A stretch of 64,000 bases of DNA from Xenophilus sp. E41 (GTDB taxonomy: Bacteria; Pseudomonadota; Gammaproteobacteria; Burkholderiales; Burkholderiaceae_C), in assembly GCF_003671765.1 (NCBI RefSeq), contig NZ_QPIB01000005.1, positions 207,186 to 271,185 of the forward strand, given 5' to 3'. The translations under genes and the position numbers were made by a program. The notes below the pieces were generated by a model, which saw only the letters and a program-made list of their open reading frames with translations, was not told where the DNA came from and ran no database searches. Below are positions 9,688 to 12,141 of this stretch, in pieces (the stretch's first letter is position 1; each line of letters begins with the position of its first letter).

Positions 9688-12141
9688 CTACTTGGCCTTC
9701 ACCTCGACACGCCGCGCTTCCGCGGCCGGGCCGCCGGCCTGGGTCTGCTCGGGCTTGGCGAGTTCGACCTTGTCCTCGGGCACGCCGGCCATCTTGAGGG
9801 CGGCGGCCACGTTCACGGCCCGCTGCTTGGCGAGTTCGGCATTCTTCGCCGGGTCGCCCGTCGCGTCGTGGTAGCCGCTCACCAGCACGGTGCTGCCGCT
9901 CTGCACGGCCTTCACCACGTCGGCCAGCGCCGCGCCGGCGTTGGGCGCCACCTCGGCCTTGCCGCTCTCGAAGTAGAACTTGACGATGCCGTTCTCGACC
10001 TTGACCGAGGCCGCCTCGGCCGCGCCGACGGCGGCGCCGGCCACCACCGCGCCCGGCGTGGTCACGGCCGCCGGCGCGGCCGCCACGTCGCCGGTGTGGA
10101 ACTTCACCACCAGCGGCACGATGAGCAGCGCCACGATGTTGATGATCTTGATGAGCGGGTTCACCGCCGGGCCGGCCGTGTCCTTGTAGGGGTCGCCCAC
10201 GGTGTCGCCGGTCACCGCCGCCTTGTGCGCCTCGCTGCCCTTGCCGCCGTGGTGGCCGTCCTCGATGTACTTCTTCGCGTTGTCCCAGGCGCCGCCGCCG
10301 GTGCACATGCTGATGGCCACGAAGAGGCCGGTGACGATGGTGCCCATCAGCAGGCCGCCCAGGGCCTTCGGGCCCAGCAGCAGGCCGACCAGGATCGGCA
10401 CCACCACCGGCAGCAGCGAGGGGATCATCATTTCCTTGATCGCCGCGCCGGTCAGCATGCCCACTGCCTTGCCGTACTCCGGCTTGGCCGTGCCTTCCAT
10501 GATGCCCTTGATGTCGCGGAACTGGCGGCGCACTTCCTCGACCACGGCGCCCGCGGCGCGGCCCACGGCTTCCATGGCCATGGCGCCGAAGAGGTAGGGG
10601 ATCAGGCCGCCGATGAACAGGCCCACGATCACCATCGGGTCGGAGAGGTTGAAGTCGATGGCGCGGCCGTAGCTCTCGAGCTTGTGCGTGTAGTCGGCGA
10701 AGAGCACCAGCGACGCGAGGCCGGCCGAGCCGATCGCATAGCCCTTGGTCACGGCCTTGGTGGTGTTGCCGACGGCGTCGAGCGGGTCGGTGATGTCGCG
10801 CACGGACGAGGGCAGCTCGCTCATCTCGGCGATGCCGCCCGCGTTGTCGGTGATGGGGCCGTAAGCGTCGAGCGCGACCACGATGCCCGCCATGCTCAGC
10901 ATGGCCGTCGCGGCCACGGCGATGCCGAAGAGGCCGGCCAGCATGTACGACGCGATGATGGCCACGCACACGAAGATCACCGGCCAGGCCGTGGAGCGCA
11001 TCGACACGCCCAGGCCCGCGATGATGTTGGTGCCGTGGCCCGTGGTCGAGGCCTGCGCGATGTGGCGCACCGGCTTGTACTGCGTGCCGGTGTAGTACTC
11101 GGTGATCCACACCAGCGCGGCCGTGAGCACCAGGCCGACGGCGCAGGCGCCGAAGAGGCGCATCTGGCTGCCCGTGGCGCGGATCGCGTTGTCGGGAATC
11201 AACCAGGCCGTGACGAACCAGAAGGCGATGAGCGAGAGCACGCCCGCCACCGCCAGCCCCTTGTAGAGCGCGGGCATCACGTTGGTCATGCCGGGCGAGG
11301 CCTTGACGAAGAAGCAGCCGATGATCGACGCGATGATCGACACGCCACCCAGCGCCAGCGGGTAGAGCACCGCGTTCACCGGTGCGGCCGTGACCATCAG
11401 CGCGCCCAGCACCATGGTCGCGATCAGCGTCACGGCGTAGGTCTCGAACAGGTCCGCCGCCATGCCGGCGCAGTCGCCCACGTTGTCGCCCACGTTGTCG
11501 GCGATCACGGCCGGGTTGCGCGGGTCGTCCTCGGGGATGCCGGCCTCGACCTTGCCGACCAGGTCGGCGCCCACGTCGGCGCCCTTGGTGAAGATGCCGC
11601 CGCCCAGCCGGGCGAAGATCGAGATCAGCGAGGAGCCGAAGGCGAAGCCGATCAATGGGTTGAGCGCATGCGACGTGACCGCCGCCGTGCCGCCCAGGAA
11701 CCAGTAGAAGGCCGCCACGCCCAGCAGGCCCAGGCCCACCACCAGCATGCCGGTGATGGCGCCGCCGCGAAACGCGACGTCCAGCGCCGGCCCGATGCCC
11801 TGCGTGGCCGCCTGCGCCGTGCGCACGTTGGCGCGCACCGACACGTTCATGCCGATGAAGCCGCAGGCGCCCGAGAGCACCGCGCCCACCACGAAGCCGA
11901 TGGCGGTGGTGAGGTCGAGGAAAAGGGCGATCAGCACGGCCAGCACCACGCCGACGACGGCGATGGTGGTGTACTGCTTGGCCAGGTAGGCCGATGCGCC
12001 GGCCTGGATCGCCGCGGCGATCTCCTGCATTCGCGCGTTGCCGGCGTCCTTGGAAAGAATCCAGCTGCGCGCCCAGATGCCGTAGGCCACGGCCACCAGG
12101 CCGCAGACGATGGCGAGGACGAGAGGGGTGTTACCTGTCAT
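9688..12141 (-). CDS. hppA: K+-independent H+-translocating pyrophosphatase with C-terminal OmpA-like domain
   Basis: Integral membrane pump of 817 residues that couples PPi hydrolysis to proton export. Residues 1 to about 680 are the H+-PPase with many membrane spans. The substrate motif [11 protein letters not shown] and the NVGDNVGD acidic cluster are visible. K462 and T465 in [10 protein letters not shown] are the residue pair that marks the K+-independent H+-pumping class. Usual length is 660-720. Here the last ~110 residues add an OmpA/MotB-like segment ([11 protein letters not shown]...[11 protein letters not shown]...[13 protein letters not shown]). The start is the ATG at 12141 (MTGNTPLV). 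Downstream lies a SnoaL-like gene; the soluble pyrophosphatase is divergent. Confidence 0.93.

Follow-up and report, generated by a model that had tools for sequence, protein, structure and literature searches.

In a 64,000-nucleotide stretch of the genome of Xenophilus sp. E41 (contig NZ_QPIB01000005.1, positions 207,186 to 271,185; hereafter the window), a gene predicted to encode a proton-pumping membrane pyrophosphatase (H+-PPase) ends in an OmpA-like module, and our sequence comparisons place this module in a domain subfamily that is attached to several inner-membrane energy and transport proteins, mainly in the order of the window (Burkholderiales). We consider it probable that the pump, with its predicted periplasmic linker and a module that would grip peptidoglycan, exemplifies a reusable anchor on energy and transport proteins. 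The pump fusion is already in print. The accessible text of a 2024 PeerJ review (PMC11210485) reports an OmpA-like C-terminus in the membrane pyrophosphatase (m-PPase) of Paucibacter sp. KCTC 42545, which has the same architecture as the pump described here, a K+-insensitive pump followed by an OmpA-like C-terminal domain of about 110 residues. The fusion also occurs in other betaproteobacteria according to that text (Rubrivivax, Rhizobacter, Acidovorax and Polaromonas appear in a legend, and a table has at least five accessions), where the role of the tail is said to remain to be elucidated. What is added here is the wider host range of the module subfamily; no report of the same domain on other hosts was found in the literature searched, which lacks most subscription journals and preprints.

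An earlier note on this DNA had described the gene as an H+-PPase fused to an OmpA-like domain, and Pfam indeed finds both families in one minus-strand frame of 817 codons. The H_PPase match (residues 15-674, E 2.7e-276) covers the profile in full (1-645 of 645) without stops, so that the pump core is complete; it is the only pyrophosphatase pump detected in the genome. The OmpA match (PF00691) lies at residues 723-794 in the whole protein (E 7.6e-12, 45.9 bits), and the profile check of the tail that the note had proposed, made with the last 110 residues alone, gave E 2.1e-13 and 50.8 bits. Both scores are above the curated Pfam cut-off of 27.2 bits, and the tail matches profile positions 1-76 of 98. 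The OmpA/MotB-like motifs quoted in the note are all present in the tail. The extra C-terminal part is there as claimed, but about 138 residues, not about 110, follow the last pump helix (about 39 of linker and about 99 of domain). Alignments to the nearest solved pumps, namely 8b37 (K+-insensitive proton pump), 4a01 (plant-type vacuolar) and 4av3 (Na+ pump), all stop at residues 678-680.

The tail has the beta-alpha fold of Pal/OmpA; PA0833 is the best Foldseek match of the module, and YfiB and MotB are among its structural neighbours. D759 and R774 are 15 residues apart, a spacing identical to that of Asp271 and Arg286 in Acinetobacter baumannii OmpA, which bind diaminopimelate according to the available part of the literature (PMC5974059). 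The Arg was found in all 160 modules compared and the Asp and Arg together in 155 (two of the 160 are low scoring; Pfam was run on sets of 34 and 27 non-pump frames, and the remaining single-helix hosts were labelled from their sequences). Of the outcomes that the earlier note had named as fatal to its proposal, neither a tail without the OmpA fold nor one without the Asp/Arg pair was obtained. The most likely ligand of the module is meso-diaminopimelate in the cell wall, which D759 and R774 would contact.

In its core the protein is most likely an ordinary K+-independent H+-pumping pyrophosphatase. K462 and T465, from which the pump class had been proposed, fit the K12.46/T12.49 signature and are invariant in all 42 aligned rows (the window included), as are the conserved catalytic Asp/Asn/Lys motifs. 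The changes A12.46K and G/A12.49T accompany K+-independent H+-PPases in the accessible text of a recent paper (PMC10897367), which also assigns D16.39 to the active site and D/N16.46 and K16.50 to a mid-membrane ion gate with the exit channel beyond it. The spacing from D654 to N661 and from there to K665 (7 and 4 residues) is that of 16.39, 16.46 and 16.50. Because the active-site Asp precedes the gate residues along the helix, helix 16 should run from the cytoplasm to the periplasm, which strongly suggests that the C-terminus is periplasmic and argues against a cytoplasmic tail, set beforehand as a refuting outcome. The linkers of 53 fusion pumps have 27-89 residues (median 45), with 36% Ala and 11% Pro. 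An extra transmembrane helix in the linker, which would turn the tail inward, was rejected by the hydropathy argument alone: 46 of the 53 linkers have a mean hydropathy below 1.6 over 19 residues, and the best 19-residue value is 1.45 for the linker in the window versus 2.43 for helix 16. The six most hydrophobic linkers are rich in Ala, Val and Pro.

The genome has 13 OmpA-domain matches, the pump's own included, and just one other is close to the pump tail (58% identity over 107 residues). This relative (locus L124 8628-9803, plus strand, outside the window on G000:C11) has one transmembrane helix, judged by eye, an Ala/Pro linker and an OmpA module, and the gene beside it resembles gamma-glutamylcyclotransferase, also by eye. 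With a profile built from twelve modules (A2), the members in 16 genomes scored at least 96.9 bits and the next match 59.4 bits; the gap is less clean elsewhere, where the lowest member scored 82.3 bits (family sample) and two class-level matches 70-71 bits. In the family of the window, A2 gave 64 matches at E 1e-18 or better, spread over 37 of the 70 genomes sampled. Their hosts, tallied by frame reading and Pfam, were single-helix proteins (31), H+-PPases (17, of which 4 were matched by a profile across the pump end and the module, not read as frames), YidB/DUF937-like proteins (4), PufC (3), AmtB (3), CoxB with a cytochrome c domain (2), and CcoP, CcoO, a c-type cytochrome and an RND adaptor (1 each). 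Another 27 frames, of which four came from the class search and nearly all lay outside the family (L288 is inside it), included CoxB (7), PufC (4), DUF937 (4), CcoP (3), HlyD/RND adaptors (2) and Amt (1), the rest having OmpA with another or no partner. Modules below 70 bits or below 60 bits were left out of the two frame-reading sets. The module of all eight Amt proteins stands at the N-terminus, directly after a start that resembles a signal peptide, and in the other fusion types read the module is C-terminal; from the known topology of the host proteins, the module end is presumably the periplasmic end in each type. The near-invariant residues of the subfamily (a KP pair, and an Ala before RRV) are absent from the ordinary OmpA domains in the same alignment. 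PufC, the photosynthetic reaction-centre cytochrome subunit, carries a C-terminal module at loci L214, L217, L222, L235, L288, L292, L293 and L294. At two loci, L226 (G436) and L130 (G630), a single-helix module gene lies near a fused pump gene in convergent orientation.

Further genome samples, which overlap with the family sample and with one another and hence are not independent, had modules at E 1e-18 or better in 43 of 300 genomes from the order, in 7 of 323 from the class (the window's own family accounts for 3) and in 11 of 299 from the phylum (10 within the order, family included). Two of the four class matches from outside the order reached only 65-66 bits when read and may be ordinary OmpA domains. 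A tblastn search of the tail against a plasmid collection (72,556 records, threshold 1e-12) gave no match.

Phylogenetic trees led us to reject the reading that all pumps descend unchanged from one ancient fusion. In the tree of pump cores (136 rows, reconstructed with FastTree, the fastest method, after exclusion of cores shorter than 400 residues, of loci from L249 onwards and of 17 loci that were duplicates or truncated), presence of the module has to change 18 times, and starred branches force at least 13 of these changes. The module tree, in which the subfamily is split from four ordinary OmpA domains of the same genome (support 98, with a long-branch warning at the outgroup), places the modules of Amt, YidB, CoxB, PufC and CcoP each on one side of a branch, and those of pumps and single-helix proteins are intermixed (14 and 12 changes, respectively, of which at least 4 are forced in each case). 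This tree has 108 columns, with 60 of 115 inner branches below 80 support, so its finer joins and root are weak, and change counts cannot separate gain from loss. The simplest reading would be that the module was attached and lost repeatedly and was copied from host to host; in one genome, a pump module and a cytochrome module are 83% identical. An Ala/Pro-type tail without an OmpA domain ends 20 of the 136 pumps. Pumps with a long tail of this type and no OmpA domain stand at L016, L017, L036, L038, L043, L048, L063 and other loci; such tails are perhaps what is left after loss of the module, or linkers that still await one.

Compared with the nearest genome of the same genus, the module has 19 synonymous and 1 non-synonymous differences (ratio of non-synonymous to synonymous rates, dN/dS, 0.014), the core 71 and 3 over 543 compared codons (0.013), and the linker 8 and 2 (0.087). 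Since the module is under purifying selection like the core in this closest pair, the tail is not a chance addition. An assembly or frame artefact was likewise rejected, because no stop separates pump and module in the 53 module-bearing pump frames that were read (most begin inside the pump; 12 extend back to a motif near residue 95), some fusions sit in single-contig genomes (e.g. loci L117, L150, L152 and L153), and the closest pair shows this selection. The tail might still be a near-neutral passenger, spread by copying and tolerated at whichever periplasmic terminus it lands on, as the many changes on the pump tree, the domain-less Ala/Pro tails and the 83% identical modules on two hosts of one genome would suggest. 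We regard this as quite improbable given the strong selection in the closest pair, a module dN/dS below 0.7 in all seven pairs and the retained site residues.

The proposal of the earlier note that a periplasmic tail could bind peptidoglycan and tie the pump to the wall gains support from the OmpA fold, the diaminopimelate-binding residues and the predicted side of the membrane. In this anchoring mechanism, the flexible linker would let the OmpA-like domain reach the cell wall, D759 and R774 would bind meso-diaminopimelate, and the wall-bound module would hold the pump in place, restricting its diffusion; the tethered pump would perhaps be grouped with other tethered complexes. The same anchor would have been attached repeatedly to aa3 and cbb3 oxidase subunits, the reaction-centre cytochrome, the ammonium transporter and RND adaptors. 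The domain, fold, site residues, purifying selection between two close genomes, host range and repeated host changes come directly from sequences or models; the periplasmic side (strongly), peptidoglycan binding, tethering and grouping are inferred. As a conjecture, the benefit would be that producers and users of the proton gradient are placed near one another or near the wall. A wider form, in which one OmpA subfamily on periplasmic ends is an order-wide snap-on wall anchor that pins energy complexes and sets where the proton circuit is made and used, seems possible to us, with chances somewhat short of even.

Several observations weigh against anchoring. The fusion is patchy: it was found in 7 of 79 named pump relatives (the best 80 of at least 591 candidates, one of which, L032 at a contig end, has an unreadable tail) and in at least 51 of 299 family genomes (49 full-length profile matches plus G442 and G460), and therefore the pump works without the module. 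The seven carriers are two Variovorax, Methylibium rhizosphaerae, Glaciimonas soli, Candidatus Accumulibacter aalborgensis, a proteobacterium and Lysobacter sp. Root916; at L044 the tblastn alignment reaches residue 812, yet no module stands in frame. Comparisons with six fusion pumps that are more distant each show faster evolution in the module than in the core (dN/dS 0.25-0.68 versus 0.14-0.35), as might be seen in a passenger. All five modules without the Asp belong to PufC, in which Ser replaces it in five of eight, so diaminopimelate binding in the known way is not required of every member. Finally, no sign of a benefit from tethering was seen in the sequence analyses.

The PufC modules, which retain the Arg, would also suit an alternative in which the modules mainly dock to one another or to a shared periplasmic partner and peptidoglycan is a weak or secondary ligand. 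Very different energy proteins share one subfamily with the near-invariant KP pair and the Ala before RRV, and PA0833 is described as dimeric in solution in the available part of its report (PMC5974059). We consider docking unlikely, because the Asp/Arg pair is retained in nearly all modules and because, among the 37 module genomes, 20 have one module and 9 have two, so that partners for hetero-docking would often be missing; the single-helix protein is the only other member in the window's genome. Sensing is a further alternative, in which the module would monitor the state of the envelope and regulate its host protein instead of anchoring it. YfiB and the plug regions of MotB act in sensing and regulation, both proteins are structural neighbours of the module, and long flexible linkers could carry a switch. 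Against this, the hosts have no common mechanism for one sensor to govern, and the pump linkers are Ala/Pro-rich and range from 27 residues upwards, which makes sensing the least probable of these alternatives, in our view very unlikely.

For anchoring, the closest parallels are with OmpA-like domains of known systems. The OmpA/Pal domains (PF00691; 3td5, 2hqs and 6jfw) have the same fold and Asp/Arg site, and the module would share their periplasmic placement. Their carriers are outer-membrane proteins or lipoproteins, whereas the host here is an inner-membrane ion pump. The stators MotB and PomB belong to inner-membrane energy-transducing complexes that an OmpA-like domain at the C-terminus fastens to peptidoglycan; the proposed working of the pump is similar, and MotB structures are among the matches. 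MotB, however, anchors a force-generating motor, a mechanical need that is not so obvious for a chemical pump. The module profile also matched residues 755-844 of the photosystem I subunit PsaB (PDB 7f4v chain aB, 872 residues; E 1e-8, 38.6 bits), like the pump a bioenergetic complex with an OmpA-like C-terminal stretch; it is cyanobacterial, and its score is far below those of the subfamily members. We take this entry to be from Gloeobacter. In the accessible text of the Gloeobacter photosystem I paper, PsaB is modelled for residues 3-727, and peptidoglycan and OmpA are not mentioned (PMC9000952). If 7f4v is the same protein, the matched stretch lies beyond the modelled part.

Bacterial respiratory and pumping complexes are usually viewed as freely diffusing or as grouped by lipids and partners. 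If anchoring is true, an exchangeable wall-binding domain would be a direct physical means of positioning bioenergetics in the envelope, and the OmpA-like m-PPase tail noted in 2024 would fall within a larger pattern. Removal of one small domain, which many relatives naturally lack, offers a test of the idea. Taken alone, the pump fusion would be an oddity already on record; as a member of a family of exchangeable anchors on many energy proteins, it merits a bench test.

Table. Positions in the window of the fusion gene, its parts and the residues discussed in the text
Feature	Position	Strand	Basis or remark
Whole gene, K+-independent H+-PPase (most likely) with C-terminal OmpA-like module	9688..12141	-	817 aa, stop included
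Pump core, residues 1-679 (to about the end of the last transmembrane helix)	10105..12141	-	Pfam; alignments to solved pumps
Ala/Pro-rich linker, about residues 680-718	9988..10104	-	composition, hydropathy
OmpA-like module, about residues 719-817	9691..9987	-	
D759, equivalent to Asp271 of A. baumannii OmpA (diaminopimelate binding)	9865..9867	-	motif and spacing
R774, equivalent to Arg286 of A. baumannii OmpA (diaminopimelate binding)	9820..9822	-	15 residues after D759
K462, K12.46 (K+-independence)	10756..10758	-	alignment
T465, T12.49	10747..10749	-	alignment
D654, N661 and K665, D16.39, N16.46 and K16.50 of helix 16	10147..10182	-	spacing

The divergent neighbour of the membrane pump encodes a soluble inorganic pyrophosphatase (PF00719, E 2.3e-57; 12420-12959, plus strand). 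The motif of the soluble enzyme was present in the flanks of 32 of the 80 named pump loci, upstream and on the opposite strand in 26 of these 32. A fasciclin-domain protein (PF02469) with a signal-peptide-like start is encoded at 13134-13619 on the plus strand.
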